DNA of 47,164 bases from Candidatus Woesearchaeota archaeon (GTDB lineage Archaea; Nanobdellota; Nanobdellia; Woesearchaeales; JAIPIC01): assembly GCA_021734865.1 (NCBI GenBank), contig JAIPIC010000007.1, positions 1 through 47,164 on the forward strand, in the 5' to 3' direction. Below, one piece after another: positions 6,977 through 25,141 of this stretch. Below the pieces are notes generated by a model that saw only the letters and a program-made list of their open reading frames with translations, was not told the DNA's origin and ran no database searches. A program made the position numbers and the translations under genes. How positions within the stretch are numbered: position 1 is the first letter of the stretch; every line of letters starts with the position of its first letter.

Positions 6977-7028
6977 AAAATCAGATAAATTTAAATAATT
7001 AGTTGACTCAAAATCAGATAAATTTATA
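6977..7028 (+). promoter_or_regulatory. Promoter with direct repeat before the CARF gene
   Basis: AAAATCAGATAAATTTA occurs at 6977-6993 and again at 7010-7026, 33 bp apart. The second copy runs into TATA (ATAAATTTATATA), forming a TATA box about 40 bp before ATG 7068. The first copy would lie one to three helical turns upstream. This looks like a promoter with a duplicated binding site, perhaps for the CARF-HTH protein itself. Confidence 0.55.
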
Positions 7029-7067
7029 TATTCAATTAAAAAACAATACTATCAGAGGGTGAAAAAA

Positions 7068-7655
7068 ATGAAAATACTAATATCTACAATCTGGAAAGGA
7101 ACTGCCGTTATTCAGGCTATAAAACTATTCAAACCACAAAAGGTATATTTTATTGTTGATGAACCATTGGAAGAAACAAGAAGGAGTTCTATTGCTATGA
7201 TCAAAGATTTATTCTCAGAGATTGAATATCAACAGGTATCTGCTAAGATTTATGATATTGTTGGCATCTCAAAATCTGTAATTGATATCATTGATAAAGA
7301 GAAAGGAAATAAGATTACAATACATATTTCTGAAGGTCGAAAAACAATGAGCCTAGGATTACTTTTTGGAGCCTATGTCAAAAGGAAATCTGTAGATGCT
7401 GCTTATTATATCACTGAGGAGACAAACACACCAATAAAACTTCCTTTGGTTGAATTGAAACTTTCTTCAAAAAAAGTTATTTTGTTAGAAAAAATAAAAA
7501 AAGGTTTAACAGATATTGAAAAGATTAGTAAACAACTAGATATTAAGCCTGCAACTGTTTATGTTCACATGAAGGAATTAAGAGATGAAGGATTTTTAGA
7601 TGACAAAAATCAAATAACTGAGATGGGGAATATAGTTTTATTACAAAATAATTAA
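7068..7655 (+). CDS. CARF-winged-helix regulator (Csa3-like)
   Basis: The 195-residue protein has an N-terminal CARF domain (MKILISTIWKGTAVIQAI as strand 1 and helix; the ligand motif HISEGRKTMSLGLLFGAYV at about 85-105) and a C-terminal winged helix (KKGLTDIEKISKQLD-x4-TVYVHM, about 143-175). That is the Csa3 architecture: in CRISPR loci such proteins bind cyclic oligoadenylates and switch transcription. No CRISPR array, Cas10 or other cas gene is in this window. ATG 7068 is used because GAGGGTGA precedes it by 5-6 nt; a GTG at 7059 is part of that site. It is the first gene of the ten-gene defence run, and a duplicated promoter site lies upstream, so it probably controls the run in response to a nucleotide signal. 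Confidence 0.75.
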   Translation: MKILISTIWKGTAVIQAIKLFKPQKVYFIVDEPLEETRRSSIAMIKDLFSEIEYQQVSAKIYDIVGISKSVIDIIDKEKGNKITIHISEGRKTMSLGLLFGAYVKRKSVDAAYYITEETNTPIKLPLVELKLSSKKVILLEKIKKGLTDIEKISKQLDIKPATVYVHMKELRDEGFLDDKNQITEMGNIVLLQNN

Positions 7656-7667
7656 GATATACTAAAA

Positions 7668-8837
7668 ATGACTTGCTACAGCCATTCAAGAATCAGCACA
7701 TTTGAACAATGTCGATACAAATACAAGCTTCAATATATCGACAAGATTAAGGTAGATGTGCCAACGACTATTGAATGCTTCATGGGAGACCTTGTCCACA
7801 GAACTCTTGAGAAATTATATGCAGACCTAAAATTCCAAAAACTGAACTCCAAAGAAGATTTATTGAAATTCTATAATAATCTCTGGGATAAAGAATATAC
7901 CTCAGAAATACTAATTGCAAAACAGGATTATTCTGCCGATAACTATAAACAAATGGGCGTAAAGTTTATCTCAGATTATTATGACCAATATAAACCATTT
8001 GACCAGATGACTATTCTTGGACTTGAAACTCAAGATAGGATGACTCTTCCTGATGGAAATCAATGGCACGTCAGGATTGATAAGCTTGCTTGTAAGGATA
8101 AAACCTATTATGTATGTGATTACAAAACTAATAGTCGTATGAAAGATCAAGAAGATGCAGATTCTGACAGACAATTAGCTCTTTATTCAGTATGGGTAAA
8201 AGATAAATTCCCTGATGCAGAGAAAGTGGTGTTACTTTGGCATATGCTTGCATTCAATAAGGAAGTTGTTTCCATAAGGTCAGATGATGAACTTAAGAAG
8301 CTTCAGAATGATACAGTTAAAGCCATTAAGACAATAGAAGCTTGCAATGATTTCCCTCAGAACACAAGTGCACTCTGTAATTATTGTGTTTTCAAATCAA
8401 TATGTCCATCATTCAAGCATGAGCTTGAACTTGAAGAAAAAACAGTTGAAGAATTCAAGGAAGATGATGGAGTAAAACTGGTTGACGAATACGCTCAATT
8501 AGACATTCAAGAAAAAGATATCAAGAAGAAAAAAGAAGATATCAAATCGAGATTAATAGAGTTTTCAAAACAAAAAGAAGTAGATATTGTTTACGGTTCT
8601 AATAAAAAAGCATCTATTAAGTCCTATGATAAGGTTGTATATCCTGAGGATAAAGATGCGTTTTTGAATCTCATTAAAGAAAAAGGCATTTATGAAGAGG
8701 TCTCCATGTTGTGTTATCCTAAATTAACCTCAAGGATAAACAAGAATCAAATTGACCCTGAAATAATTAGTCTAACATCAAAGGAAACTGATTATAGAAT
8801 CTCTGTTTCTAAAAGAAAGAATAGGGAGGATGATTAG
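7668..8837 (+). CDS. RecB/Cas4-like PD-(D/E)XK nuclease
   Basis: The 389-residue protein has the order seen in RecB-type and Cas4 nucleases: YSHSRISTFEQCRYKYKL (the S-x-S-x-L/I-x-x-F-x-x-C start with a cluster cysteine), FMGDLVHRTLEKLY (the G-x-x-x-H motif), VCDYKTN (the D-x-K catalytic strand), QLALYSVWV (the Q-x-x-x-Y motif) and ALCNYCVFKSICP (three cysteines of a likely [4Fe-4S] cluster). The C-terminal 120 residues are charged and helical, with no match known to me. It should be an iron-sulphur DNA exonuclease. It starts 12 bp after the CARF gene and ends 12 bp before the SNF2 helicase gene, consistent with a shared transcript and joint action with that motor. Confidence 0.8.
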   Translation: MTCYSHSRISTFEQCRYKYKLQYIDKIKVDVPTTIECFMGDLVHRTLEKLYADLKFQKLNSKEDLLKFYNNLWDKEYTSEILIAKQDYSADNYKQMGVKFISDYYDQYKPFDQMTILGLETQDRMTLPDGNQWHVRIDKLACKDKTYYVCDYKTNSRMKDQEDADSDRQLALYSVWVKDKFPDAEKVVLLWHMLAFNKEVVSIRSDDELKKLQNDTVKAIKTIEACNDFPQNTSALCNYCVFKSICPSFKHELELEEKTVEEFKEDDGVKLVDEYAQLDIQEKDIKKKKEDIKSRLIEFSKQKEVDIVYGSNKKASIKSYDKVVYPEDKDAFLNLIKEKGIYEEVSMLCYPKLTSRINKNQIDPEIISLTSKETDYRISVSKRKNREDD

Positions 8838-8849
8838 TTCTATCATAAA

Positions 8850-11800
8850 ATGAATCCTAAATTTACTAAAGGTCAAGTTGTAAAGCTTGTAAACTCAGAT
8901 AAAGTAGGTGTAATCTGCGAAGAACCAAAAATAATAGCTGGAGAAGTTCATTATGCAGTTTTTATTGAGGGTTCGCAGAAGACTTATTCTGAACTAAGTT
9001 TGGAACTTGTCGCAAAGACAAGTAATGATTTGACTTCATCAATCAAGAATAATGAGTTTTCTAATCTAAAAGATTTCTTGAGCTATTTGACATATATCAA
9101 GATTGAAAGACCCCTCTCAAATAACCTGTATGCCTTTCTATCATCAAGGACTGAATTCTTGATCCATCAATTTAAGCCTATTTTGAAGTATTTAAATTCT
9201 CCATATCAAAGATTATTGATTGCAGATGAAGTTGGAGTTGGTAAGACAATTGAAGCTGGAGTAATCTATACTGAACTGTTATCAAGACATAGGATGAGAA
9301 ATGCTTTGATTATCTGTCCGTCTGGGCTAAGATTCAAGTGGCAAAAAGAGATGCGAAAACGATTCTCTGAAGAATTTGGAATATTACATTCAAAGGATAT
9401 TAAAGTTTTTTTTAAGAAATTTGAAAGGAATCCTAATGGTGTTAATATCAAAGCAATCGCCTCTATTCAAACTCTAAGGAATGAGGAGATATTGGAAAAC
9501 CTTGAGCGACTTCAAATTCCCTGGGATTTTATATTAGTTGATGAAGCACATCATTTAAGAAATGAAGGCACAAAAAGTAATTCATTGGGAAAAATACTAT
9601 CAAATACTGCTGATAGTATGATACTTATGTCAGCTACTCCATTACAGCTAGGTAATAGGGACTTATTTAATCTTCTGAGAATCATGCTTCCTGAAGAATT
9701 TGACAATTTTGATACATTTGAACAGCAAGTTAAACCTAATGAATTCATAAACATGGCATTGCTTATGCTCTCTAAGAAAGAAGACTGCAATAAGATACTT
9801 GATTCCCTGACACTGGTTGAGGGAACCTCACAAAGAGAAAGATTCCTGTCAAATCCAAATTATGTTTCAGCAAAAACTATACTCCAATCAGAGAGGGTAT
9901 TATCTCGTGATACAATAATTTCACTCCAAAAAAAACTAAGCGAACTAAATGTTCTTTCAAACATCTACACTCGAACAAAGAAAAAAGAGATCAGTGTAGA
10001 TTCACCTATCAGAGAGCCAGTGACCATCAAAGTAGAGTTTACTGAAGCTGAAATGCAGTATTACAAAAGGGTAGCAGACTTGATTATGACACTCAATCCA
10101 GGTGTTCCACCAGGCTTCCTCCTACAAATGCCTCTTAGACAGGTGGCAAGTTGTATTCCTGCATCAATACAATATCTTAATGATATTGCAACATCAGGAA
10201 TTATAGCTTTAGAACAAGAAGAATTAGCTGATGATCTGGATGAGTCAGAGGAGATTTCATTAACTGCTTCAGATATCAATCTGATTAAAGAAACTGTTGA
10301 GTATGGTAAAGAGAATCTTAATTTCCCAGATTCCAAAACTGAGACTTTTCTAAAAACCATAGAAGAGATATTTAAGAATGGCTCAGTTGAAAAAATGATT
10401 ATATTTTCATTCTTCAAAAGAACATTAAAATATCTTGAAAAGGAATTGAAGAAATTAAATATATCAACTGCAAGAATAGATGGAGATGTTCCATTCATTG
10501 AAAGAGAAGAAATATTTGAGAAATTTTCAAAACCAGATGGGTATCAAATCCTTTTATCTTCCGAAGTTGGAGGAGAAGGTCTCGATATGCAATTCTGCAA
10601 TTGCATGATGAATTATGACCTTCCTTGGAATCCAATGAGAGTTGAGCAAAGGATTGGTAGGTTAGATAGGTATGGTCAGAAACATCCAAAAATCCACATA
10701 TACAACTTTTCTGTTGAAGGCACAATAGAATCAAATATCTTCCTTAGACTATGTAATAGGATTGGTGTGTTTGAACAGTATATCGGAGAACTGGAACCTA
10801 TTCTAGGAGAAGTAATGAGGCAATTATCACAGGAGATAATCAATACAGAACTAACTTCAGAACAACAAAAAGAAAAAGCAGATCAAATTGCCTTAGTCAT
10901 TGAGAAAAGAAAGAAAGAACTGGAAATCTTTGACCTTGATAGAAAAAAGTTCTTAGGACAAGACCAATATTTTACTGAAGAAATATCAAATATTAAAAAG
11001 GAAGAAAGGTTTATAACACCATTAGAAATTAAGAACCTTGTTGAGTCATTCATAAAGGACAATTTTCCAAAATCAAAGATTTCTCTTGAGGATAAAAATT
11101 CTCAGATTTATATTGTCAAACCTGATGAAGAATTTAAGGAGTTTGTAAGAGATTATATTTTTGGAGAACAGGAAGTAAGTACTGAATTCTCAGAACACTT
11201 TTTGGAACTGTTATCCCAAGACAGTTTTAAAATTACTTTTGACTATCGTGTTGCAAATGAGAATCCACATATTGAATTTATTACTCTCCGTCATAAACTG
11301 ATTACCTCAATAATTAAGTATTACTCAAAAAAAGAAGTTGACATAGCAACACAGATAGAATATACTGGAAGCTTAGCATCTAATTTAGGCAGTTATGCTT
11401 TTTTTATATACCTTCTTGAAATAAAAAGCTACACAAAATCATTAACTTTTATTCCAGTAGTCATTGATTTAAATACAAACGAAGTTTCAACAGAGTTGTC
11501 AGATAATATCTTCAAAATATTAAAAGAATCAAAAGATTCTTCCGAAAGTCAACCAACAGATATTGACAATGTTCATACAGCAGAAGAAAGAGCAATCCTA
11601 CATGTAGTTGAGCAGAAAAAAAGTAAACAAAAGGAGTTGCTAGAAGTAAATGAGTCTCTGATAAACGATAGGTTAAGCAGTCTAAAACAGACACATGAAT
11701 ATCGTATTCTGAACATAGAAAAAATAATTGAAAGACTTAAGGAATCTCAAAGCGAGAAATCAAACAAAGTTATTCTCATGAAAGAGTCTCAAAAAGTTAA

Positions 11801-11903
11801 TCTTATTAGAAACTATGAGCGAAAAAAAGCAGCACTTGAAGAGGATAAAAAAGTAATTGTCAGCCATGAGTTCATCTGTGGAGGTATCTTGAATGTCAAT
11901 TGA
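8850..11903 (+). CDS. SNF2/RapA-like helicase
   Basis: This 1017-residue SWI2/SNF2 ATPase of the HepA/RapA type shows the motifs in order: DEVGVGKT (126-133), LIICPSGL, ASIQTLR, VDEAHHLRN (about 229-237), MSATPL, IIFSFFKRTLKYLEKEL, IDGDV, LLSSEVGGEGLDMQ and RIGRLDRYGQ. The first 100 residues form a small beta-rich domain, and the last 350 are a helical, charged extension with no known match. SNF2 motors of this kind drive DISARM and similar antiphage systems, translocating along DNA and remodelling bound proteins. The stop overlaps the next gene by 11 bp, so it and the GHKL protein are translationally coupled and probably form one complex. Confidence 0.88.
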   Translation: MNPKFTKGQVVKLVNSDKVGVICEEPKIIAGEVHYAVFIEGSQKTYSELSLELVAKTSNDLTSSIKNNEFSNLKDFLSYLTYIKIERPLSNNLYAFLSSRTEFLIHQFKPILKYLNSPYQRLLIADEVGVGKTIEAGVIYTELLSRHRMRNALIICPSGLRFKWQKEMRKRFSEEFGILHSKDIKVFFKKFERNPNGVNIKAIASIQTLRNEEILENLERLQIPWDFILVDEAHHLRNEGTKSNSLGKILSNTADSMILMSATPLQLGNRDLFNLLRIMLPEEFDNFDTFEQQVKPNEFINMALLMLSKKEDCNKILDSLTLVEGTSQRERFLSNPNYVSAKTILQSERVLSRDTIISLQKKLSELNVLSNIYTRTKKKEISVDSPIREPVTIKVEFTEAEMQYYKRVADLIMTLNPGVPPGFLLQMPLRQVASCIPASIQYLNDIATSGIIALEQEELADDLDESEEISLTASDINLIKETVEYGKENLNFPDSKTETFLKTIEEIFKNGSVEKMIIFSFFKRTLKYLEKELKKLNISTARIDGDVPFIEREEIFEKFSKPDGYQILLSSEVGGEGLDMQFCNCMMNYDLPWNPMRVEQRIGRLDRYGQKHPKIHIYNFSVEGTIESNIFLRLCNRIGVFEQYIGELEPILGEVMRQLSQEIINTELTSEQQKEKADQIALVIEKRKKELEIFDLDRKKFLGQDQYFTEEISNIKKEERFITPLEIKNLVESFIKDNFPKSKISLEDKNSQIYIVKPDEEFKEFVRDYIFGEQEVSTEFSEHFLELLSQDSFKITFDYRVANENPHIEFITLRHKLITSIIKYYSKKEVDIATQIEYTGSLASNLGSYAFFIYLLEIKSYTKSLTFIPVVIDLNTNEVSTELSDNIFKILKESKDSSESQPTDIDNVHTAEERAILHVVEQKKSKQKELLEVNESLINDRLSSLKQTHEYRILNIEKIIERLKESQSEKSNKVILMKESQKVNLIRNYERKKAALEEDKKVIVSHEFICGGILNVN

Positions 11904-14900
11904 TGCAGAAATGCTGATAAGGAAGATTCAGGGAGAATATAGCTCCTATTTCATTGATGGAGACCCTAGTAATGGATTGACAAGAGCAGGTATGGGAGCT
12001 ATTAATCCAACAAAAGCATTACTTGACAATTTCTCAGAATTCAATAGATTTATTGAAGAGATGATTCAGAATGCTGAAGATTCTAGATCCTCTGAGATTA
12101 TATTTTATGTCCATAAAGACCAGATTATAATCGAAAATAATGGAAAACAATTTGATGAACAAGATGTAGAAGCAATCACTATTGTTGGCAATTCAACTAA
12201 ACAATCAAGCGACTCAATTGGAATGTTTGGTTTAGGTTTTAAATCAGTATTTCTCCTATCAGATGCTCCTAGGATTATTTCTGGGAAATTCAATTTCTCT
12301 TTTAATACAAAGACCTATATTTATCCTTATTTAGAGACTCAAAAACCAGAAGGTATAGATTCAAAAAAGACTTATGTTGTTCTACCTTTAAAAAAGAACT
12401 TAATAAGCACAATCTTAGAGTCAATAAGGGGGCATTATAACAAAACTGGAGAGTTAATTCTCTTTCTAAAGAACCTAAGAAGAATACAGATTATAGACTA
12501 CCAATTAGGGGAGCTTACATTTGAAAAGAAGAAAAATGATGAGATCCTCAGTATATATCGGACTCAGGATAATCAAAAGCAGTTAACCAGCAAATGGCTA
12601 ATTAAGAGTAATAATTTCAAGATAAATAAATCATACACAACATCATTAAATGAAGGAGACAGGCGTATTAAGGCAAATAGTATCTGTGTTGATTTGGCAT
12701 TTGAGATAGATAGAGATAATTCATTAGTAGAGAAAAAAGATAAGGCATTATATTCCTTCCTCTCAACCAAATACCTTACTAACTTACCTTTCATTATTAA
12801 TTCAGATTTTCAATTAACTGGAGACAGAGAAAGGATTAAGGAAGATTCAAGTTGGAATAATTTCATCTTTTCTTGTGCGTTTGATTTATTTAAAGAATCA
12901 ATTGACTTTTTCAAGAATCATAAGGATTATAAAAAAACATTTTATGGTATAATCCCAGAATGGAGTGTACGTCCACACGGAAAAGAGATACTGATCAAAT
13001 TCTATAATGACGTATTGGAATATTGTAAATCAAGCGAGATAGTATTGACACATTCCCAAGTGTTTAAGAAAGGAGAGAAGTGCTATTTTGATGATAAAGA
13101 GATAATAGATGTAATCCCAAATGAGATAATACAAAAATTTGAAGGAAGAGAATTTGTCTCTAATGAGATTCCAACAAAGTTCAGACAATTAATCTCAACT
13201 TTTAGTGTTAAATATTTCAACGAAACTAAAATACTATCCTTCCTAAAGGAACATAAGAGTTTCATTAAGGGATTATCTGATGAAAATCTACAAAAACTCT
13301 ATTCAAAGATTTATTCAATATTCCATACAAGGGTACTAGATAGTATCAAGGAATTAGATATATTTAAAACACAGGATTCTGGATTCACAAATTTGGGGGA
13401 GATGCAATCTAACCCATTATTTTTAGCAGATGATTCGGATAATTCTTTTGCCAAAGATAAAAATCTTGAGATTAATTACCTTGATAAGAACCTCACAAAT
13501 AAAATTAAAGCTTCGTCTGATATAAACTTAAAATCCTTTTTTGATGCATTAGATAAGGCAGGTTATGTAAAAACCTTTGACATAAATTCTTATGTTAGCA
13601 ACCATCTAATCCTATTATTTCGAGATCAGAAAAATACTGAAAGGTTTTTTGAAGTAACAAGATTCATCATGAATAATCTTGCAAAACTTGATGATTCTTC
13701 AAAGAGAGCCATACGGGAAGGGATACTAGTAAAGACTTCTCTAGGCAAATGGATTAAGCCCGCAAAAGTCTATTTCTCAAAATCATATGGTGAGGATGAT
13801 GTTTTTGAATTAATCTCAGAACATTTTGATATTGATATTCTGTCTGAGGAATATGTGAAGAAAAAAGACGAGATAAAAGAATGGATTCAATTTTTCAGAG
13901 AAGCTAGAGTCAACTATTATTTTCAAACTGAAGAGATTGATAGATATCATAATGGGATTGATCATGGTTCCAACTCCGTTGATTGTACTATCCTAAGGAA
14001 GATATTCAAGAAACTAAAACAAATTGATGAAAATGAAAGTCATAAAATCGCAACAAAAATATTTGCAAGTATTGACAGCAACTGGGAGCATTATAGAAAT
14101 AAACTAATAACCCATGAATACAAACCAAAAATTGAGATGGGTCAAGAAGTAGGATGTGACTCCATTGAGAATCCTACCCAATTCTTGTCCATGTTAAGAA
14201 ACAGTGACTGGATTCCTAATTCTTCAAAGACATTATTTCGCCCAGATGAAGTATATCTCGATAAAGAAGCAATAAGAGATTACGATAAAAATTTGCCTCG
14301 ATTACAGACAGGGTATTCTTTCAAAAATAAAGAGATGATTGAAGCATTAGGCATCAGAGAGAGATTAGATTCTAATGTTTACATCAAGCACCTCATAAGG
14401 TTGAAAGATTCCAAACAAGATTTTGATCTTCTGACCTTAGAGAAGATATATTCTGAGATTGCATCATCAATAAGCTCAACCCAGACCAAGACAAAAATTG
14501 AAGAGATTAATTCAGTTTTCAATGAGAACTGTCTGATATTTGTACCTAATAAACTTGGAGAATCTTGGAAGAGTCCTGAAGAATGCTTTCTCTATAAAGA
14601 TGATATTGTAAATGGGTATCTGCATGGAATATGCAACCTGTATCAAAATAAAGGAACCTTAAGGTTATTTGAAGATTATTTTCATATTAAGGAAAGACCA
14701 TCTACAGATGATTATCTTCTGATGCTAAAGGAGTTCTCAAAAACAGAACCTACTAAAGCATTAATGACAACCACTTTAAAGATATACAAACAATTAAGTA
14801 GAGAACTTGAGGAATGCGATAAAAATGAAGAAAGTCCACATTGGTTAAAAGGATTTTTAGAAGGCAATTATATAATCACTTCAAAAGGGACTTTTGAAAA

Positions 14901-16488
14901 CAGGAAAGATATCTATGAGAATGACAATCAAGAATTAGCAGAGATATTTCAAGATTATTTGAATTTTATATTTATACCAACTTTAAGCATCAAACCACGG
15001 ATTCAAGCATTATTGGATAGATTGGAACTAAAAACCATAAGTTCTTCTGTGAAACAGAAGCTCATAAAACCATCAATAAAGCATTCAATTTCCATTGAGA
15101 AATATATTCCAATGATTAGTATCATTGAACGAGGATTGGGGGAATATATACTAAAGCATTATAACGGCTCAAACGCAAAGGCGAATATCTCTAAGCTTTC
15201 AGTAAAATTTGTGGATAAAATTAATCTAAAGCTCTCAATCAAGAACTTTGATAAGACAATAGAGACCGACCAATATTATAATCAGGATGATAAATCAATA
15301 TACTTGAAATTTCAAAACAGTCAAGATATTAAAAAATACAAGCAACAAATATCGAGAGGAATTTCCCAAGTCTGCGGAATACCTAGTTTATTTGGGCATG
15401 TTTTCAATATAATCCAGATTTGTGTCCTTGATGGCGATGATATTTTTGAATTCTACAAAAAAGAAGGAATTAATCTTCCAAAAGATGAGTTTGATATTTC
15501 ATTCTTAGATCAGGAGGAAGAGATAATTCATGAGAAGGTAGATGACAAAGATATTGAATTGCCAAAAGCTGAACCTAAAAGGAGTAAGGCAAAAGACAAG
15601 GAGCCAGAACTCAGTACTGAAGAGGAATCTATTGAGGACATTTTTGATTCTGATGTTGATGAACCTGAAGAAGAGGATGCATTTGAAGAACCAGTGGAAG
15701 AGAAGATTAAGGAAAAACAGAAGATAGAAGTTGAAGAAGTCCATAGAGAAAGAGAAGAAGTTGAAAGGACTAAGCAAAAGATTATCCAAGAGATGGATGA
15801 ATTAAGTAGAAAGAAGAAAGAGTTTGTTAAAGAGAAAAGTCAATTTGAAAAGGAAAAGTCCACTCACGAGGAAATTATCAGGCGACAAAGAGAAGAGATT
15901 AAAAGAGGCAGGACGACCAGCCCTTCAAAAGATACTAATTTCTTGGACAAGTTGAAAACTGTTTTCGGAAAGAAATCATCCGCACCTGAGAATCCACAAA
16001 CATATTTTGAAACTGATGAACCTATGTCTTTAGAAGAGAAAGAAGAATTTGAGCAAAAGATTAAACAAGAACTTGAAGAAGAAATAATTAATGTAAGAAG
16101 TGAAAATAAAAGAAGGGGTTATAAGTTAGTTCTTGAATCAATAGGCAAGAATGAAGAGGTGATTCAAGAAGTTAAGAACTTCTATAATGGAAAGTGTCAA
16201 ATCTGTGGATGGAGCTTTAAGGATGTATCAGGCAAAAATTATTGTGAGATTGTCGATATCCTGCCAAAAAGATATGGTGGAGTAAGATTTACAGGAAATA
16301 AACTATGCTTATGTCCTAATCATTCGGCTATGAAAAAACACTCATTTACAGACTATGAGAATATGAAAATTCAAGGTAATACTCTGCATCTAAAAATAGG
16401 TAAAACTGAGCATAAGCTAAGATTCAAGCCAACACATATGGCGATGTTGAAAGTATTGTTCAAGCTAGAGGAAGATAATGACGAATGA
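11893..16488 (+). CDS. Giant GHKL (sacsin-like) ATPase with HNH-like end
   Basis: The 1531-residue protein begins with a GHKL ATP-binding fold of the sacsin/Nov kind: EEMIQNAEDSRS (N box, 55-66), IENNGKQF (80-87), VGNSTK and GMFGLGFKSVF (110-120). About 1100 residues of unassigned, mostly helical sequence follow. Residues about 1205-1345 are acidic and then a charged coiled coil (RKKKEFVKEKSQFEKEKS). The C-terminus (about 1434-1500) is a zinc HNH-like domain: CQICGWSF, then CEIVDILPKRYGG, then NKLCLCPNHSAMKKHSF. The usual first catalytic histidine of HNH is replaced (EIVDI in place of E-x-H-H-I), so cleavage is uncertain. Coupling to SNF2 upstream and PIN downstream (11-bp overlaps on both sides) suggests a helicase-ATPase-nuclease machine. 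Confidence 0.72.
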   Translation: MSIDAEMLIRKIQGEYSSYFIDGDPSNGLTRAGMGAINPTKALLDNFSEFNRFIEEMIQNAEDSRSSEIIFYVHKDQIIIENNGKQFDEQDVEAITIVGNSTKQSSDSIGMFGLGFKSVFLLSDAPRIISGKFNFSFNTKTYIYPYLETQKPEGIDSKKTYVVLPLKKNLISTILESIRGHYNKTGELILFLKNLRRIQIIDYQLGELTFEKKKNDEILSIYRTQDNQKQLTSKWLIKSNNFKINKSYTTSLNEGDRRIKANSICVDLAFEIDRDNSLVEKKDKALYSFLSTKYLTNLPFIINSDFQLTGDRERIKEDSSWNNFIFSCAFDLFKESIDFFKNHKDYKKTFYGIIPEWSVRPHGKEILIKFYNDVLEYCKSSEIVLTHSQVFKKGEKCYFDDKEIIDVIPNEIIQKFEGREFVSNEIPTKFRQLISTFSVKYFNETKILSFLKEHKSFIKGLSDENLQKLYSKIYSIFHTRVLDSIKELDIFKTQDSGFTNLGEMQSNPLFLADDSDNSFAKDKNLEINYLDKNLTNKIKASSDINLKSFFDALDKAGYVKTFDINSYVSNHLILLFRDQKNTERFFEVTRFIMNNLAKLDDSSKRAIREGILVKTSLGKWIKPAKVYFSKSYGEDDVFELISEHFDIDILSEEYVKKKDEIKEWIQFFREARVNYYFQTEEIDRYHNGIDHGSNSVDCTILRKIFKKLKQIDENESHKIATKIFASIDSNWEHYRNKLITHEYKPKIEMGQEVGCDSIENPTQFLSMLRNSDWIPNSSKTLFRPDEVYLDKEAIRDYDKNLPRLQTGYSFKNKEMIEALGIRERLDSNVYIKHLIRLKDSKQDFDLLTLEKIYSEIASSISSTQTKTKIEEINSVFNENCLIFVPNKLGESWKSPEECFLYKDDIVNGYLHGICNLYQNKGTLRLFEDYFHIKERPSTDDYLLMLKEFSKTEPTKALMTTTLKIYKQLSRELEECDKNEESPHWLKGFLEGNYIITSKGTFENRKDIYENDNQELAEIFQDYLNFIFIPTLSIKPRIQALLDRLELKTISSSVKQKLIKPSIKHSISIEKYIPMISIIERGLGEYILKHYNGSNAKANISKLSVKFVDKINLKLSIKNFDKTIETDQYYNQDDKSIYLKFQNSQDIKKYKQQISRGISQVCGIPSLFGHVFNIIQICVLDGDDIFEFYKKEGINLPKDEFDISFLDQEEEIIHEKVDDKDIELPKAEPKRSKAKDKEPELSTEEESIEDIFDSDVDEPEEEDAFEEPVEEKIKEKQKIEVEEVHREREEVERTKQKIIQEMDELSRKKKEFVKEKSQFEKEKSTHEEIIRRQREEIKRGRTTSPSKDTNFLDKLKTVFGKKSSAPENPQTYFETDEPMSLEEKEEFEQKIKQELEEEIINVRSENKRRGYKLVLESIGKNEEVIQEVKNFYNGKCQICGWSFKDVSGKNYCEIVDILPKRYGGVRFTGNKLCLCPNHSAMKKHSFTDYENMKIQGNTLHLKIGKTEHKLRFKPTHMAMLKVLFKLEEDNDE

Positions 16489-17614
16489 AAAAAAATATCT
16501 TGAAAAGCTAGAAAATGATGTTCAAGAGAGGCTTTATGATCTCTTTATTATGCACATCCAGAATGTCCATGAGAAAGTGTCAAAGAGGGGGGAAAATGTC
16601 AATTCATTAATCCAATTACTAGAAAAAGCACTTAATCAGCTTGAAAAGAATATCAAAGACCAAAATAAAATTTTTATCTATAGATATATATTGATAATTT
16701 GTAATAAGATTCTCATCTATCAAACAAAGAGACAGGATATAAAAGATTTAAAGAAGAAGCTTATTGAAGATTTCACTCATTCAGAAGAAGATCAAGGAGA
16801 CATGATTCCTTTGAACTATCAGATGAATGAGATTAGATTAACATATGATGTCAGCTATTTGACTTATCTAATGAAAAAATTTGTTAAGGATAAATTATGG
16901 GATAAAGCTTTATATTCACTAATCGCAGTTAGGTTGATTGAACCTGACAATGAGGACATAGACCCTTGTTATGCTGAAATTCGCTCAAATATGGGCAAAA
17001 ACTCGCCAGAAAAGAGAGATTTTGATGAACCTAAGGAAATGACCCTTGCTTTGGACTCAAACGCTGTAATTACCCATATATTCCAAGATGTTGGAGAATA
17101 TAGGATAAGGGCTGAAAGGGGATTTGATCTTGAGAAACTTGGAAATGACAATAAATTCCTTATTACTTCCTCGGTTAAAGCGGAAGTTCTCAGACATATT
17201 GAATATAAGATGGTATGGATTAGGCATTTTTGTAAGGAAAATCCTAGATTCTCGGCTGATGAAATTGAAAATACTTTGAAAAAAAGACTTGAAAAATTAT
17301 GTTCAAAATATGGTTGTGATGATATCAAGATTGAAAAAGAATTAATTGATAATATCAAGAAAATGTATTTATCCCATTTGAATTTGCTCGAGGATATATT
17401 ACTTGCGAAAATACATGGAAAATATGTATCCCATAAACTTAGGAAATTAGCACAAAGAGAAAGCATGCTTCCTGAAGAAGGAGATATTCTTCTCCTTGCT
17501 GAATGTGCTACTATTGGCGGAGACATAGGGATACTTTCTCTAGACAAGGACTTTACAAATTTTACAGAGCCAATAATGGATAATTTCAAAATCAAAATTT
17601 ATGATAATGTTTAA
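16478..17614 (+). CDS. PIN-domain nuclease with helical N-terminus
   Basis: The 378-residue protein has a helical N-terminal half (about 1-180, perhaps TPR-like, e.g. LWDKALYSLIAVRLIEPDNEDID) and a C-terminal PIN domain. Acidic residues of the PIN site can be seen: LALDSNAVI (first Asp, about residue 190), SSVKAEVLRH (Glu) and EEGDILLLAECATIGG with ILSLDKDF (the last Asp residues). PIN proteins are metal-dependent RNases and can also cut DNA. It overlaps the GHKL gene by 11 bp and precedes hsdM by about 35 bp. There is no adjacent antitoxin, so it is probably a subunit of the helicase/GHKL system rather than a VapC toxin. Confidence 0.75.
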   Translation: MTNEKKYLEKLENDVQERLYDLFIMHIQNVHEKVSKRGENVNSLIQLLEKALNQLEKNIKDQNKIFIYRYILIICNKILIYQTKRQDIKDLKKKLIEDFTHSEEDQGDMIPLNYQMNEIRLTYDVSYLTYLMKKFVKDKLWDKALYSLIAVRLIEPDNEDIDPCYAEIRSNMGKNSPEKRDFDEPKEMTLALDSNAVITHIFQDVGEYRIRAERGFDLEKLGNDNKFLITSSVKAEVLRHIEYKMVWIRHFCKENPRFSADEIENTLKKRLEKLCSKYGCDDIKIEKELIDNIKKMYLSHLNLLEDILLAKIHGKYVSHKLRKLAQRESMLPEEGDILLLAECATIGGDIGILSLDKDFTNFTEPIMDNFKIKIYDNV

Positions 17615-17648
17615 AAAATGCAAATGATTGAGGTTTAAAAGGTGGAAT

Positions 17649-20063
17649 ATGGCAATCAAAAAAAGTGAATTATACAGTTCATTATGGAAAAGCTGTGATG
17701 AATTAAGAGGAGGGATGGACGCATCGCAGTATAAAGACTATGTACTTGTACTTCTCTTCGTCAAGTATGTTTCTGACAAATATGGCGGAAAGAAGGATGC
17801 CTTGATAGAAGTTCCTGAAGGTGGAAGCTTTAAAGACATGATTGCACTCAAAGGCAAGCCAGACATTGGCGACCAGATAAATGTAATCATAAGAAAACTA
17901 GGCGAAGCAAATAATCTAAAAGATGTTTTCAAGGAAGTTGATTTCAATAACGATGATAAGTTAGGCAAAGGAAAAGAGATGGTAGACAGGCTTTCAAAGC
18001 TTGTTGCAATCTTTGAAAACCCAAGCCTTGATTTCAGTAAGAATACTGCTGAAGGAGATGATATCCTCGGGGATGCTTACGAGTTCCTTATGCGAAAGTT
18101 TGCTACAGAATCAGGTAAAAGCAAAGGTCAATTCTATACACCTGCCGAAGTTTCTCGAGTTCTTGCCAAAGTTGTTGGAATTGCTAATGCAACAAGACAA
18201 GACCAGACTGTTTATGATCCAACCTGCGGTTCAGGTTCGCTTCTTATCAAAGCAGCTGATGAGACAAAGCATGGTATCTCAATCTATGGGCAGGAAAATG
18301 ATGTAGCAACAAGGTCTTTGGCTGTTATGAACATGTGGCTTCATAGGTATCCAATGGCTGAAATATGGAGAGATAACACAATCTCTACACCACACTGGAA
18401 AGAGAAAGATGGAACACTGAAAAGGTTTGATTTCCTTGTAGCTAATCCACCATTCTCAAACAAGAACTGGAGCAGTGGGATAGACCCGAATAATGATGAG
18501 TTCAATAGATTTGAAGGGTTTGGTATACCACCTGCAAAAAATGGTGACTATGCTTTCCTGCTTCATATGTTGAAATCATTGAAAAGCAGAACAGGAAAAG
18601 CAGCAGTGATCCTTCCTCATGGAGTTCTATTCAGAGGCAATGCTGAGGCATCAATCAGACAAAATCTCATAAAAAGAGGCTATATCAAAGGCATAATTGG
18701 ATTGCCACCTAATTTGTTCTATGGTACTGGAATCCCTGCATGTATAATTGTCATCGATAAAGAGAATGCTGAGGATAGGAAAGGCATCTTTATGATTGAT
18801 GCAAGCAAAGGATTCTATAAAGATGGCAACAAGAACAGGTTAAGGTCAAGAGACCTTCACAAGATAGTTGACGTGTTCACGAAAGAACTTGAGATTCCTA
18901 AATATTCTCGGATGGTTCCTATTACTGAGATTACGGATAAGAAAAATGATTATAACCTGAACATCCCACGGTATATTGACAGCCAGGAGGAAGAGGATTT
19001 GCAGGACATTGACGCACATCTTCAAGGAGATATACCCAATAAGGATGTTGATGATCTAGCAAGGTATTGGAAGGTTTACCCAAACCTCAAGAAGAAGCTA
19101 TTTTCTTCAAGCAAGAGAAATAATTATTCAGTCTTAAAAGTAAAGAGCCAGGAGATCAAATCAATGGTCTTCAGTGACCCTGAATTTATTGAGTACTCAA
19201 AAAAGCTGGAAAAAGTGTTCCAGGAATGGAGAGCAAAGAACATAAAGCTATTGAAGTCAATTGAGATTGGTGCAAAACCAAAGGAATTGATATTCAATAT
19301 ATCTGAAGATATCCTTGAGTTATTTTCAAAACTTGACCTGATTGACAAATATGATATCTATCAGCATCTGATGAATTATTGGGCTGAAATCATGCAGGAT
19401 GATGCTTATCTGATTGCTGTCAATGGCTGGAAAATCGAGATTAATGTCATCAAGAACAAGAAAGGTAAAGAGACTGGATGGGATTGTGATTTATTACCCA
19501 AAGAGATTGTCATCAAGAAATATTTCTCTTCAGATCAAGAAGCAATTGATAAATTGAATTCTGAATTGGAGAGCATAAATTCAGAGATGCAGTCGATAGA
19601 TGAAGAAAACTCTGGAGATGATGACTTATTCTCTGATGCAAGGACTGATGCTGGCAAGATTACCAAAAAAGAGATTGGCAACAGGATAAAGGAGATAAAA
19701 GGCAATCCTGAATATGCTGATGAAGCAGAAGCATTGAATGGATATCAAAAGCTTCTAGATAAAGAGAAGGCTTTGAAGGATAAGATCAAGGCATATGATT
19801 CTGAGCTTGACAAAAAACTTCTTTTCAAGTATAAAAGCCTTAAGGAAGATGAGATTAAAGAGCTGGTTGTAGAAAACAAATGGCTTGCATCCTTGCACGA
19901 GCTTGTTAAAGGCGAGATGGAGCGGATATCTCAAAGGCTTGCAGGAAGAATAAAGGAGCTTGCTGAAAGGTATGACATCCCTCTTCCTGAGATTGTCAAG
20001 AAAGTTGATGAATTATCAAAGAAAGTCGATGGGCATCTAGAGAAGATGGGGTTTAGATGGTAG
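17649..20063 (+). CDS. hsdM: Type I restriction-modification methylase subunit
   Basis: HsdM has an N-terminal helical domain (LYSSLWKSCDELRGGMDASQYKDYVL), the SAM motif YDPTCGSGSLLIKA (about 188-201) and catalytic NPPF in VANPPFSNKNW (about 264-267), so it methylates adenine at N6. At 804 residues it is longer than the usual ~500; the extra C-terminal part (from about 470) is helical with coiled coils (SDQEAIDKLNSELESINSEM) and ends in KVDELSKKVDGHLEKMGF. This long form is known among type I methylases. I chose ATG 17649 with AGGTGG 4 nt upstream, instead of a TTG 21 bp earlier. It starts the hsdM-sduA-hsdS-hsdR-hydrolase set. Confidence 0.92.
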   Translation: MAIKKSELYSSLWKSCDELRGGMDASQYKDYVLVLLFVKYVSDKYGGKKDALIEVPEGGSFKDMIALKGKPDIGDQINVIIRKLGEANNLKDVFKEVDFNNDDKLGKGKEMVDRLSKLVAIFENPSLDFSKNTAEGDDILGDAYEFLMRKFATESGKSKGQFYTPAEVSRVLAKVVGIANATRQDQTVYDPTCGSGSLLIKAADETKHGISIYGQENDVATRSLAVMNMWLHRYPMAEIWRDNTISTPHWKEKDGTLKRFDFLVANPPFSNKNWSSGIDPNNDEFNRFEGFGIPPAKNGDYAFLLHMLKSLKSRTGKAAVILPHGVLFRGNAEASIRQNLIKRGYIKGIIGLPPNLFYGTGIPACIIVIDKENAEDRKGIFMIDASKGFYKDGNKNRLRSRDLHKIVDVFTKELEIPKYSRMVPITEITDKKNDYNLNIPRYIDSQEEEDLQDIDAHLQGDIPNKDVDDLARYWKVYPNLKKKLFSSSKRNNYSVLKVKSQEIKSMVFSDPEFIEYSKKLEKVFQEWRAKNIKLLKSIEIGAKPKELIFNISEDILELFSKLDLIDKYDIYQHLMNYWAEIMQDDAYLIAVNGWKIEINVIKNKKGKETGWDCDLLPKEIVIKKYFSSDQEAIDKLNSELESINSEMQSIDEENSGDDDLFSDARTDAGKITKKEIGNRIKEIKGNPEYADEAEALNGYQKLLDKEKALKDKIKAYDSELDKKLLFKYKSLKEDEIKELVVENKWLASLHELVKGEMERISQRLAGRIKELAERYDIPLPEIVKKVDELSKKVDGHLEKMGFRW

Positions 20064-20968
20064 TCAAAGAAGAGAAAAAATCAATGTATAAAAAAATTCG
20101 ACAATTTGATATACGTAAAGGTATTTATCCTATTAGAGTTTCTTTGAGTGTATGGGATGATGGAAATAGTAAACCTTTTGTTGAACTGTATTCTGGTGCA
20201 CCATTAGACAATGGATATAAACACAGTCATTTCAGAATTACAAATAAGCAAGTTTGGGATAAGATTAAACTAATCATTGACAATGAACTTTCAGAAGATT
20301 TGAATGAGGGTCGTAAGCTTTCTGAGAAAGCTTTACAGAAGATTGATGATCATGAATTTGAAATTATGAAGAAAGATAATCAGAAACTTAAACAGAAATT
20401 AAAGGGGTTTAGGCGATATGTAAAAGAAGCAAGAAAACTTAGGCTTCCAGAATACAAAAAAAACCTTGTGGAATTCAAGAAGCAAATTGATAAAAAAGGA
20501 AAAGAAGAAGAACTTCAGACATTCCTTTTAAAAAACTCCTGGCTTTTAGGTTTAGAATACGAAAATGCACAACCACAAAAGATAGGAGTCCGTAAAAGAT
20601 ATGATTTCTATGTAGAGAAATATGATGGATACGCAGATATAGTTGAGATAAAAAAGTCTTCAGAAAACCTCTTCCTTAAGAATGGAAAAATGTCAAAACC
20701 ATTGGCTGATGCTTTGCAACAATTAATAGAATATATTGATGATGCAATCATTGAGGGTGATAGTAAAAGAATCAGCAATAAACTACAAATCAATTTCTTA
20801 AAACCAAAAGGGATTTTGATTATTGGAAAAACAAAAAATGAAGAAATCAAACAAAAGATTGCACAATTGGCATATTATTTCCATAATATTGAAATTTTAA
20901 CATATGATGATTTATATGAAAGAGGGAAGTGTATTGTTTCATCCTTAGAGAAAAATGACAAAAAGTGA
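20057..20968 (+). CDS. Shedu-type nuclease (DUF4263)
   Basis: The 303-residue protein has an N-terminal region of about 140 residues rich in charge, and a C-terminal DUF4263 domain: KEEELQTFLLKNSWLLG, then RKRYDFYVE (Asp) and ADIVEIKKSS (E-x-K at about 195-199), then ADALQQLIEYIDDAI. This is the PD-(D/E)XK nuclease fold of Shedu (SduA), a stand-alone antiphage protein. Here its ATG overlaps the end of hsdM (ATGGTAG) and its end overlaps hsdS by 14 bp, so it is translated with the type I subunits. It may add a second nuclease that senses methylation or DNA ends, or be an independent system that has entered the operon. Confidence 0.82.
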   Translation: MVVKEEKKSMYKKIRQFDIRKGIYPIRVSLSVWDDGNSKPFVELYSGAPLDNGYKHSHFRITNKQVWDKIKLIIDNELSEDLNEGRKLSEKALQKIDDHEFEIMKKDNQKLKQKLKGFRRYVKEARKLRLPEYKKNLVEFKKQIDKKGKEEELQTFLLKNSWLLGLEYENAQPQKIGVRKRYDFYVEKYDGYADIVEIKKSSENLFLKNGKMSKPLADALQQLIEYIDDAIIEGDSKRISNKLQINFLKPKGILIIGKTKNEEIKQKIAQLAYYFHNIEILTYDDLYERGKCIVSSLEKNDKK

Positions 20969-22088
20969 ATGTATACAAACTGAGATAGGAGTGATTCCCA
21001 AGGATTGGGATCTTGATAGTATAAAGAATCATGCTTCAATTACTACTGGAGCAAAGAACACTCAGGATAAAATCGATGATGGTAAATATCCTTTCTTTGT
21101 TAGGTCGCAGAAAGTTGAAAAAATCAATAGTTATTCATTTGATGGAGAAGCTGTTCTTACTGCTGGAGATGGAGTTGGAACAGGTAAGATTTTTCATTAC
21201 ATAAAAGGAAAATTTGATTTTCATCAGAGGGTCTATAAGATAAGTCATTTTGATGAGAAACTGGATGGATACTTCTTTTATCTATATTTTAGCAATAACT
21301 TCTATAATAGAATTATGTCGATGACTGCAAAATCTTCAGTTGATTCTGTACGAATGGAGATGATTGCGGACATGAAGATACCTCTTCCAGATATAACTGA
21401 GCAAATTGCGATAGGCACATCCACGAAAGACATTCAAGAATTAATCGAATCCCTAAACAAGCTCATCGACAAGAAGAAGAAACTAAAGCAGGGAGCAATG
21501 CAACAGCTCTTGACTGGAAAAAAGAGGTTGCCAGGGTTTGAGAATGAATGGACTACAAAATATTTCGATGAAGTATTCTCAATTTCAGCAGGGGGTGATT
21601 TGGATAAAGACGATTTTTCAAAAGAACAAAATGAAATCTGCCAATATCCAATATATTCAAATTCATTATCCAATAAAGGATTATATGGATATTCTTCAAG
21701 TTACCAATATGCATCCAACCACATTACGATAACTGCTCGAGGAACTATTGGTTGGGCAAATTCAAGATATCATAAGTTTTCTGCGATAGGAAGAATTTTA
21801 ATCCTAAAGCCAATTATAAATGTTGATTGTTTTTTTCTAGCTGAGTATATTAATAATAACCTTGTATTTTCAATAGAAAGTACTGGTGTTCCTCAACTGA
21901 CAGCACCTCAAATATCTAAATATAAATTAATATTCCCTTCAGATCCTAAAGAACAATCAGCTATCGCAGAAGTCCTTACTGACATGGACTTAGAGATTGA
22001 GGAACTTGAGAAAAAGAGGGATAAATACCTAAAAATTAAAATAGGCATGATGCAACAGTTATTAACTGGGAGAATCAGGTTAAAATGA
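20955..22088 (+). CDS. hsdS: Type I specificity subunit
   Basis: The 377-residue HsdS has two target-recognition domains, each followed by a conserved helical spacer. The first TRD (about 1-150; IGVIPKDWDLDSI) ends in KKKKLKQGAMQQLLTGKKRLPGF; the second (about 195-340; ENEWTTKYFDEVFSIS) ends in LKIKIGMMQQLLTGRIRLK. The repeated QGAMQQLLTGK and GMMQQLLTGR spacers are the family hallmark, and together they set a bipartite DNA target. The start overlaps the Shedu gene and the stop shares ATGA with hsdR. The two TRDs are not alike, which suggests an asymmetric target. No second hsdS fragment or inversion site is visible. Confidence 0.92.
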   Translation: MTKSECIQTEIGVIPKDWDLDSIKNHASITTGAKNTQDKIDDGKYPFFVRSQKVEKINSYSFDGEAVLTAGDGVGTGKIFHYIKGKFDFHQRVYKISHFDEKLDGYFFYLYFSNNFYNRIMSMTAKSSVDSVRMEMIADMKIPLPDITEQIAIGTSTKDIQELIESLNKLIDKKKKLKQGAMQQLLTGKKRLPGFENEWTTKYFDEVFSISAGGDLDKDDFSKEQNEICQYPIYSNSLSNKGLYGYSSSYQYASNHITITARGTIGWANSRYHKFSAIGRILILKPIINVDCFFLAEYINNNLVFSIESTGVPQLTAPQISKYKLIFPSDPKEQSAIAEVLTDMDLEIEELEKKRDKYLKIKIGMMQQLLTGRIRLK

Positions 22089-25000
22089 ATATCGGACAAA
22101 TCGAAAGAAAAACACAAAACAGGATTGTCAAGCTATTCACTGACATGAAATACAAATATCTCGGCAATTGGGAAGAGCGAGAGAACTCAAATATTGAAGT
22201 TGAGCTATTGGAGAAATACCTTAAAAAAGCTGAGTACTCAGATACATTAATCAAAAAAGCCATCAATGAGCTTAAGAAAGCAATAATTTTCCAGAACAAG
22301 TCACTTTACGACGCTAATAAAGAAGTATATTCGTTATTGCGATACGGAGCAAAGGTTAAGGATAACATTGGAGATAAAAAGCAGACAGTTTATTTGATCA
22401 ATTGGAAACATCCATTGAAGAATGATTTCTATATTGCTGAAGAAGTGACTGTCAAAGGTCAGCATAATAAGAGACCCGATGTTGTACTCTATGTCAATGG
22501 GATTGCAGTTGGTGTCTTAGAGCTTAAGAGAAGCATTGTTTCTATCTCTGAAGGGATAAGGCAGAACCTTGACAATCAAAAAGAGATATTCATAAGAGGT
22601 TTTTTCTCGACAATACAGCTTGTGATGGCAGGCAATGATTCTGAAGGTCTTAAATATGCTACAATAGAAACTCCTGAAAAATATTATTTGACTTGGCAGG
22701 AAGAGTCTGATATCAAGAAAAAGCTTGACAGACATCTCACTCAGGTATGCAGTAGGGAAAGGCTAATCGAGATAATCCATGATTTCATTGTGTTTGATTC
22801 AGGAATAAAAAAGATTTGCAGGCATAACCAATACTTTGGTGTGAAAGCAGCACAAAGGCATGTCAAGAAGAAAGAAGGCGGTATTATCTGGCATACGCAA
22901 GGTAGCGGAAAAAGCATGATAATGGTCTGGCTTGCCAAATGGATTAAGGAGAATATTGACGAATCCAGAGTCCTGATCATTACAGACAGGGAAGAGTTGG
23001 ATGGACAGATTGAGAAAGTATTCTTTGGTGTAGAAGAAGAAATCTACAGGACAAAGAGCGGTAAAGACTTGATAAAACAATTAAACAATGCTGCTCCTTG
23101 GCTAATATGCTCATTGATACATAAATTCAAGAACAATACTGAGACAGATTATGAAAAATATATGGAAGAGCTTAAGAGCAGTCTTCCTGATAATTTTAAG
23201 GCTAAAGGCAATATCTTTGTCTTTGTTGATGAATGCCACAGAACACAGTCTGGTAAACTCCATGATGCAATGGAAGAGATTTTACCGAATGCAATCTCCA
23301 TAGGTTATACTGGGACTCCTTTGCTGAAGAAAGACAAGAAAAGAAGCATTGAAATCTTTGGCAGGTATATCCACACCTACAAATACGACGAAGCTGTAGC
23401 TGATAAAGTTGTTCTTGACTTGCAGTATGAAGCAAGAGAGATTGACCAGAAACTCAGTTCTCAGGATAAGGTTGACCAATGGTTTGAGGCTAAAACAAGA
23501 GGCTTGACTGATTTTGCTAAAGCTGAGCTTAAAAAAAAATGGGGAACAATGCAAAAAGTCCTTAGTTCTCAATCCAGACTTAAAGTTATTGTCGCTGATA
23601 TCATGCTTGATATGGAGACAAAAGACAGGCTTCAAAGCGGTAGAGGAAACGCCTTGCTAATAGCAGGGAGCATATATGAAGCCTGTAAATACTATGAATT
23701 ATTCCAAAAACATGGATTAAAGAGATGTGCAATAGTCACTTCATATTCAGGAGATGTTAATTCTATTAAGGGCGAGACTTCTGACCCTGAAGAAGAAACT
23801 GAAAACCTTCAGAAATATGAGATTTACCAGCAGATGCTTAAGCATTATGAAGAGCTATATCCTGACATAAAGACAAAAGGTTTTGAAGAAGTCATAAAAG
23901 AGAAATTTATAAAAGAGCCAGGGCAGATGAAGCTTTTGATTGTTGTTAATAAGCTTCTTACAGGATTTGATGCCCCTCCTGCAACATACCTTTACATTGA
24001 CCAAAGTATGCAGGATCATGGCTTGTTCCAAGCAATATGCAGGGTCAATCGGCTTGATGGTGAGGATAAGGAATATGGTTTTGTTATAGACTATAAAGAC
24101 TTATTCAAGAGCCTCAATAAGGCTGTTACAGATTATACTTCTGAAGCATTTGACGGTTTTGATAAGGATGATGTCCTTGGATTGCTTAAGGACAGGATGA
24201 ATACAGGAAAAGAAAACTTAGATAATGCTCTTGAAAGTGTCAAGGCATTATGCGAACCTGTAAAACCTCCAAAAGGGTCAGTTGAATTCATAGAATATTT
24301 TTGTGGTAATACTGATAAGCCAGATGACTTGAAGAATAACGAACAGAGAAGAATTGTGTTATACAAACTGACTTCTAAATTGCTAAGAGCTTATGCAAAT
24401 CTTGCGAATGAGATGTCTGAAGCAGGATACACCAAAAAAGAAGCTGAGGACATTAAGAAGGAAGTACAATACTATGAGAATATAAGAACAGAGATTAAGC
24501 TTGCAAGCGGAGATTATATTGATCTCAAGGCTTATGAGCCAGCGATGAGACATTTAATTGATTCATATATCTCTGCTGAAGACAGCAAGACGATTTCAGC
24601 TTTTGAAAATCTTACGTTAATTGATTTGATAGTCTCAAATGGCGAAGATGCTTTTAATAGTCTTCCAGCAAATATCCGAAAGAACAAAGATGCGGTTGCA
24701 GAAGTGATAGAAAATAATGTCCGTAGATTGATTATTGAAGAGCGACCAACAAACCCTAAATATTTTGAGAAGATGTCTGTTCTTCTGGATGATCTTATCA
24801 GGGAAAGAAAACAGAAAGCAATTGATTATGCAAGATATCTAAAGAAAATAGTAGAGCTAGTCAAACAGGTAAAAAGTATCTCCAGTCCTGTTGAGTATCC
24901 GAAAACAATCAAGTCAAAAGCTCAAAAAGCATTCTATGATAATTTTGGGAACAATGAAAATCTTGCAGTAAAAATACATCAAAACATAATAAACAGTAAA

Positions 25001-25141
25001 CCTGATGGATGGAGAGGAACATATCTCAAAAAGAAACAAGTAAGACTAGTGATAAAAGAAGCAATGGCAGAATATGGAATAAATGAATCTGAAAATGTTG
25101 AAAGGGCATTAGACCTTGCTGTTGAACAAGATGAATACTAA
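22085..25141 (+). CDS. hsdR: Type I restriction subunit
   Basis: The 1018-residue HsdR combines an N-terminal nuclease (RPDVVLYVNGI with Asp, then VLELKRS at about 140-147, E-x-K) and a superfamily 2 translocase: HTQGSGKSMIM (Walker A, about 269-279), RVLIITDREELDGQI, FVDECHRTQSG (motif II), IGYTGTPL (motif III) and ICRVNRLDGEDKEYGF (motif VI). The C-terminal helical domain binds the methylase. Length and motif set are normal, so restriction is probably active. It joins hsdS with a 4-bp ATGA overlap and ends inside the start of the metallohydrolase gene. Confidence 0.94.
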   Translation: MNIGQIERKTQNRIVKLFTDMKYKYLGNWEERENSNIEVELLEKYLKKAEYSDTLIKKAINELKKAIIFQNKSLYDANKEVYSLLRYGAKVKDNIGDKKQTVYLINWKHPLKNDFYIAEEVTVKGQHNKRPDVVLYVNGIAVGVLELKRSIVSISEGIRQNLDNQKEIFIRGFFSTIQLVMAGNDSEGLKYATIETPEKYYLTWQEESDIKKKLDRHLTQVCSRERLIEIIHDFIVFDSGIKKICRHNQYFGVKAAQRHVKKKEGGIIWHTQGSGKSMIMVWLAKWIKENIDESRVLIITDREELDGQIEKVFFGVEEEIYRTKSGKDLIKQLNNAAPWLICSLIHKFKNNTETDYEKYMEELKSSLPDNFKAKGNIFVFVDECHRTQSGKLHDAMEEILPNAISIGYTGTPLLKKDKKRSIEIFGRYIHTYKYDEAVADKVVLDLQYEAREIDQKLSSQDKVDQWFEAKTRGLTDFAKAELKKKWGTMQKVLSSQSRLKVIVADIMLDMETKDRLQSGRGNALLIAGSIYEACKYYELFQKHGLKRCAIVTSYSGDVNSIKGETSDPEEETENLQKYEIYQQMLKHYEELYPDIKTKGFEEVIKEKFIKEPGQMKLLIVVNKLLTGFDAPPATYLYIDQSMQDHGLFQAICRVNRLDGEDKEYGFVIDYKDLFKSLNKAVTDYTSEAFDGFDKDDVLGLLKDRMNTGKENLDNALESVKALCEPVKPPKGSVEFIEYFCGNTDKPDDLKNNEQRRIVLYKLTSKLLRAYANLANEMSEAGYTKKEAEDIKKEVQYYENIRTEIKLASGDYIDLKAYEPAMRHLIDSYISAEDSKTISAFENLTLIDLIVSNGEDAFNSLPANIRKNKDAVAEVIENNVRRLIIEERPTNPKYFEKMSVLLDDLIRERKQKAIDYARYLKKIVELVKQVKSISSPVEYPKTIKSKAQKAFYDNFGNNENLAVKIHQNIINSKPDGWRGTYLKKKQVRLVIKEAMAEYGINESENVERALDLAVEQDEY

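Follow-up and report, generated by a model that had tools for sequence, protein, structure and literature searches.

A recurrent SNF2-GHKL gene pair in a CARF-led operon of a Woesearchaeota archaeon

A SNF2 motor gene and a sacsin-type GHKL ATPase gene, adjacent in the genome of a Candidatus Woesearchaeota archaeon, belong to a widespread two-gene unit that is apparently undescribed, and the CARF-HTH, RecB and PIN genes that share their operon are local additions to this core. No paper on a pair of SNF2 and sacsin-type GHKL genes was found in the literature searched, which lay mostly outside the subscription journals.

The operon and its setting

The window, the whole stretch of 47,164 nt that was analyzed, is contig C90 of a genome of 2.0 Mb that is 87% complete. 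A TFIIB-like gene at 34270 and the archaeal relatives of the window genes mark it as archaeal, and an integrase (1393), a T4SS pilin (26083) and a VirB4-like ATPase (30715), taken together, point to an archaeal integrated conjugative element as the carrier of the operon. The features are:

6977..7026, + strand: candidate operator/promoter with two 17-bp direct repeats (repeat search and shuffles)
7059..7655, + strand: CARF-HTH regulator of the Csa3 subfamily (TIGR01884, HFX_2341_N, HTH_5, PADLOC CARF3)
7668..8837, + strand: stand-alone RecB/AddB-type PD-(D/E)XK nuclease, 389 aa (PDDEXK_1, motifs)
8850..11903, + strand: RapA/DrmD-type SNF2 DNA motor, 1017 aa (Pfam, PADLOC DrmD, motifs)
11893..16488, + strand: sacsin-type GHKL ATPase, 1531 aa (Pfam, NCBIfam, PADLOC TmtA)
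16090..16485, + strand: dead McrA/TagI-type HNH zinc domain at the GHKL C-terminus (profile, AlphaFold, Foldseek)
16478..17614, + strand: probable PIN-domain RNase, 378 aa (conserved acidic residues, sub-threshold relatives)
17628..25856, + strand: hsdM, Shedu-C (SduA-like), hsdS, hsdR and YgjP metallopeptidase (Pfam/PADLOC, same-strand run)

The CARF-HTH, RecB, SNF2, GHKL and PIN genes form one tight operon on the plus strand, in which CARF-HTH ends 12 nt before RecB and GHKL overlaps both SNF2 and PIN by 11 nt. The ORFs thus confirm the tight plus-strand operon of four genes (7668 to 17614) that a first-pass annotation had drawn, and the overlap of SNF2 and GHKL, together with the recurrence of their adjacency in relatives, bears out the translational coupling that it proposed. 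That annotation missed the CARF-HTH gene (7059 to 7655) and the type I restriction genes downstream of PIN (17628 to 25141), and its remark that a matching methylase is absent needs correction, as hsdM starts 13 nt after PIN. The genes from hsdM to YgjP may lie on one transcript with the CARF-led operon.

Several other genes of the window were noted. The divergent neighbor of the operon (5972 to 6853, minus strand) has no Pfam match and bears a resemblance, by eye, to a TGT-like fold, and a DUF4238 gene (28423 to 29433, minus strand; 9.8e-21) adjoins the conjugation genes. A Schlafen group 3 helicase gene (44517 to 46403, minus strand) has as neighbors a pair that looks by eye like nucleotidyltransferase and HEPN (43420 to 44533) and a MazG-like gene (46405 to 46809).

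The SNF2-GHKL pair and its zinc tail

The SNF2 protein matches SNF2-rel_dom and Helicase_C (E about 1e-25) with all helicase motifs kept, and the GHKL protein is of the sacsin type (Pfam SACS, 3e-14; NCBIfam, 1e-23), confirming the SNF2 motor and the 1531-residue sacsin-like GHKL protein of the first pass. RapA is the nearest solved structure to the motor, PADLOC DrmD its best label (2e-146), and its score against the NCBIfam DrmD equivalog (NF038317) is 348.7 bits, under the cut-off of 610. The GHKL protein matches PADLOC TmtA (PDLC03972, 1.2e-104); its G1 box reads N-N-G instead of D-x-G, and its ATPase activity is therefore assumed.

One genome per species (about 85,000 species) was scanned with a three-member SNF2 alignment, and the best 80 of 296 SNF2 relatives were taken together with the loci of pMETHO01 and a Rhizobium, giving 82 loci, two of which stop at a contig edge; neighborhood counts rely on plain ORF calling in a single representative of each species. 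A same-strand ORF directly follows the SNF2 gene at 80 of these 82 loci, and 74 of the 80 ORFs match an iterated GHKL profile. Such recurring adjacency, with an exact 4-nt overlap of the two genes in 27/80, is not chance. Among the six ORFs that do not match, three, all from Chloroflexi (L020, L034 and L037), encode, in place of GHKL, a ribosomal S16-like domain joined to the same dead-HNH zinc tail, and the others are fragments or small ORFs. The pair occurs in Archaea, Cyanobacteria, Firmicutes, Proteobacteria, Chloroflexi and others, and stands alone as a two-gene unit at most of the 82 loci. Separately, SNF2 genes from a related clade that is found on plasmids (L223 to L227) have a partner that appears by eye to be actin/Hsp70-like; the one that was tested has no Pfam match.

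The terminal domain of the GHKL protein is a dead HNH of the EcoKMcrA/TagI type and, judged by its sequence, not a nuclease. The zinc residues C36, C39 and C75 (numbered within 16090 to 16485) do not vary among the 49 members, and the first-knuckle zinc cysteines are kept in 49/49, whereas the catalytic His of the bba-metal motif is present in 0/49, which rules out an active HNH, and a His in the second histidine column in 6/49. The HNH-like zinc end of the first pass therefore stands as a zinc domain and falls as a nuclease. A profile of the tail matches EcoKMcrA (6ghc, 2.6e-10) and TagI (1.8e-5), and its AlphaFold model (pLDDT 87.5) finds 6ghs with Foldseek (E=5e-5) and superposes on 6ghc with an rmsd of 1.8 Å over 67 columns. 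The tail possibly binds DNA or a partner protein.

The closest SNF2 relatives among the best 80 of 296 (58 to 60%) are two from Methanosarcina (L012, L013) and one from Woesearchaeota (L014), which form a fully supported SNF2 clade. GHKL varies more than SNF2 within it, the protein being similar at 1480 aa in L014 and divergent at about 2000 aa in the two Methanosarcina. The surroundings of the Methanosarcina pairs hold no CARF, RecB or PIN, and in L014 a DUF2779 gene lies 0.6 kb upstream of the pair. Some relatives carry an N-terminal PLD or Swt1-type HEPN domain fused to SNF2, and the SNF2-GHKL operon of pMETHO01 has a UvrD-RecB fusion upstream and a divergent csa3 CARF gene; the fused domains, the UvrD-RecB fusion and the DUF2779 gene suggest that a nuclease or RNase is supplied in varied form. 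A conserved four-gene RecB/SNF2/GHKL/PIN module was rejected, as CARF, RecB and PIN are missing at the other SNF2-GHKL loci, the UvrD-RecB fusion and csa3 of pMETHO01 excepted. What endures of the new helicase-ATPase complex suggested in the first pass is the recurring SNF2-GHKL unit, which the libraries searched do not assign to one described system.

Given that most SNF2-GHKL units are without a separate nuclease gene, that the HNH is dead and that the nearest solved motor is the RNA-polymerase-associated RapA, the pair could act without any nuclease, the RapA-like motor and the GHKL clamp halting transcription or compacting invader DNA in the manner suggested for MORC-type ATPases, with RecB and PIN as unrelated passengers. 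We regard this as rather unlikely, since nuclease or RNase modules recur, either fused (HEPN, PLD) or adjacent, and motors of the RapA/BrxHII type are also at work in systems coupled to a nuclease (PMC12839542).

The DrmD label also raises the question of DISARM. At three loci (L015 and L016 from Nostoc, L031 from Paenibacillus) the pair adjoins DrmA and DrmB, with DrmC at one and a DrmMII-like methylase at all three, each reading as a DISARM locus with GHKL as an additional gene; this is a closer link than the first pass had noted. The window operon might then be a reduced or divergent DISARM, with SNF2 as DrmD, GHKL as an extra subunit, and RecB standing in for DrmC and hsdM for DrmM. We consider this unlikely, and DISARM identity was rejected for the operon as such: DrmA lies beside the pair at only 3/82 loci and most are two-gene units, the SNF2 score is below the DrmD cut-off, and no drmA, drmB or drmC was found among the operon and neighboring window proteins scanned with Pfam and PADLOC, as the first pass had stated. 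Most relatives likewise lack these three genes, whereas the GHKL partner is constant. The pair can thus join DISARM and is usually alone. An obligate methylase was likewise rejected, one being present at just 9/82 loci in a limited search.

Tiamat (TmtA) is a single-gene system. The window GHKL protein matches the PADLOC TmtA models but has SNF2 as its partner and a dead HNH at its end, and the presence of a SNF2 partner at nearly all loci speaks against its being a single-gene Tiamat. As to other defense neighbors, QatABCD adjoins a related GHKL gene, and type III R-M and DISARM are found near the pair. A PDC-S68 candidate defense gene was also seen no more than about 7 kb from the pair at L017, L018, L033 (weak), L047, L052, L054 and L061.

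The CARF/RecB head and the PIN gene

The regulator scores 66.0 bits against TIGR01884 (Csa3), above the cut-off of 60.2, with further matches to HFX_2341_N and HTH_5 in Pfam and to PADLOC CARF3 (1e-59); the ATG at 7068, behind a GAGGGTG ribosome-binding site, is its likelier start. Upstream lie two perfect direct repeats of AAAATCAGATAAATTTA (6977 to 6993 and 7010 to 7026, 33 bp apart), the second of which runs into a TATA-like TTTATATA (7023 to 7030). When the 214 bp upstream were shuffled with dinucleotides preserved, 0/2000 shuffles reached a 17-bp direct repeat, and the paired repeats mark a candidate operator/promoter for the operon that CARF leads. No shared CARF operator was seen in front of other CARF genes.

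Like the Csa3 regulators, the window protein combines CARF with a winged helix and is linked to defense genes; unlike them, it heads non-CRISPR modules and lacks the cA4-binding motif 1, G-F-N/D in Csa3, its N-terminus reading ISTIWKGTA by eye (PMC8844856). No Cas10, the producer of cOA, was found in the 87%-complete genome, and both points count against the CARF-switched reading given below.

CARF homologs give 24 matches in 18/145 genomes of the same order, and several precede type I R-M, Dnd-like, GmrSD, Schlafen and Cas12a operons. RecB shares the CARF operon in 5/13 genomes that have both (P about 1e-7, assuming a 1% chance per genome). The orders seen include CARF-DinD-RecB-RhuM-hsdM-hsdS (G097), CARF-RecB-DUF1232-helicase-DndD-like (G144), CARF-Schlafen-DinD-RecB (G016) and CARF-GmrSD-RecB (G041), and in G058 RecB borders type I R-M. 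In the host genome itself (contig C92, about 23.7 to 37.3 kb, L121/L122), a CARF-HTH paralog stands at the head of an operon in which it is joined by a UvrD-PDDEXK fusion and a Cas12a-like gene. Next come Cas4, Cas1 and Cas2, then an array, and finally a PIN paralog 50% identical to the window PIN (Cas1 identified by profile; Cas12a, Cas4 and Cas2 by eye). This spread over varied operons, together with csa3 and UvrD-RecB on pMETHO01, looks like a portable head of CARF and a RecB-type nuclease for differing defense modules. RecB and PIN therefore do not stand as members of the module drawn in the first pass: both travel with CARF-HTH and are common to other defense operons of the lineage.

The same operons bear on whether 7059 to 25856 is a single type I R-M island, in which CARF, RecB and PIN would work for hsdRMS and SNF2-GHKL would be a cassette inserted among them. 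The 13 nt between PIN and hsdM, the CARF-DinD-RecB head of an hsdM-hsdS operon and the RecB that borders type I R-M would fit such an island, but CARF and RecB are also found at the head of operons that lack hsdMS and SNF2-GHKL is without type I R-M in most genomes, and we hold the island to be very unlikely.

The window RecB matches PDDEXK_1 (E=5e-26) with its catalytic D-Y-K intact (residues 151 to 153) and has C-terminal cysteines at 237, 240 and 246, with C15 as a possible fourth, of the Fe-S type. Homologs 40 to 71% identical occur in about 40/145 same-order genomes, many of them among ordinary genes, so the window RecB may be a repair enzyme that was drafted in.

Of the two nucleases that flanked the pair in the first-pass annotation, RecB thus holds with its motifs, and PIN is a probable PIN-domain RNase, on the basis of motifs and sub-threshold matches. 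The protein alone has no Pfam match above the cut-off, and its relatives (the 50%-identical paralog and a third relative) match PIN_2 and PIN_8 just under it (4e-4 each); the acidic residues D193, E236, D336, D356 and D358 are invariant in three relatives. A structure model built without an alignment was uninformative (pLDDT 35.7), a profile search of the PDB returned only a chance match to a coiled-coil, and viral contigs scanned with PIN, CARF and RecB gave no relatives. The recurrence of PIN is too sparse to show a link with SNF2-GHKL.

A possible mechanism and its nearest precedents

We are evenly divided on a reading in which this is a CARF-switched anti-invader operon, the SNF2-GHKL pair engaging foreign DNA and the destruction of nucleic acid falling to RecB, backed up by PIN; we infer the functional steps, their order, the signal and the targets as follows. 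CARF-HTH, probably bound to the two 17-bp repeats that overlie the TATA box, would keep the operon low until a nucleotide signal made on infection binds it and the operon is released. From what is known of their families, the RapA/DrmD-type SNF2 protein would move along double-stranded DNA and the sacsin-type GHKL protein probably forms a dimer when it binds ATP and closes as a clamp on DNA or a partner; its dead McrA-type HNH would be a tail that may bind DNA or SNF2. Loaded on invader DNA, the pair would translocate and either stall replication or transcription or expose ends; RecB might degrade the exposed DNA, and PIN could cut RNA as a back-up or suicide step.

A bolder reading, which we put forward tentatively as somewhat doubtful, is that SNF2-GHKL is a stand-alone, nuclease-free immune machine of Bacteria and Archaea. 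Its RapA-like motor would have swappable chaperone-type partners (sacsin/Hsp90-like GHKL, an actin/Hsp70-like ATPase on some plasmids, the S16-zinc protein in Chloroflexi), with a dead McrA-type HNH as the tail. On archaeal mobile elements it would have come under a portable CARF-HTH/RecB head, one that Cas12a, Dnd-like, GmrSD and type I R-M operons also carry. If true, many stray SNF2 and GHKL genes filed under DrmD and TmtA would be one common two-gene system split by annotation tools, and the chaperone-like partner would raise the question of what an Hsp90-type clamp does on foreign DNA. The shared head would then mean nucleotide-signal control of non-CRISPR archaeal defenses, here without a detectable Cas10.

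The nearest conceptual precedent is the 2008 prediction by Iyer et al. of GHKL-helicase restriction systems with SNF2 and HNH (PMC2292703). These MORC/paraMORC systems, for which DNA looping was predicted, likewise place a GHKL ATPase beside a superfamily II helicase, some of them SWI2/SNF2 with HNH nucleases, whereas the window GHKL protein matches sacsin models, its HNH is fused and catalytically dead, and a methylase is not constant. BREX type 3 and the DUF499 'BR' (Hma) systems share a RapA-like SNF2 motor and added nuclease or HEPN domains, but pair the motor with DUF499/BrxC as the ATPase, alongside an N6 methylase, where the window has GHKL (PMC12839542). In VcSduA/paraMORC3 a GHKL ATPase is also thought to control the attack on phage DNA, but there it forms one protein with an active Shedu nuclease and lacks a SNF2 partner (PMC12137116). 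In the window, a gene with a Shedu C-terminal domain (SduA-like, 20057 to 20968) lies between hsdM and hsdS of the type I R-M operon.
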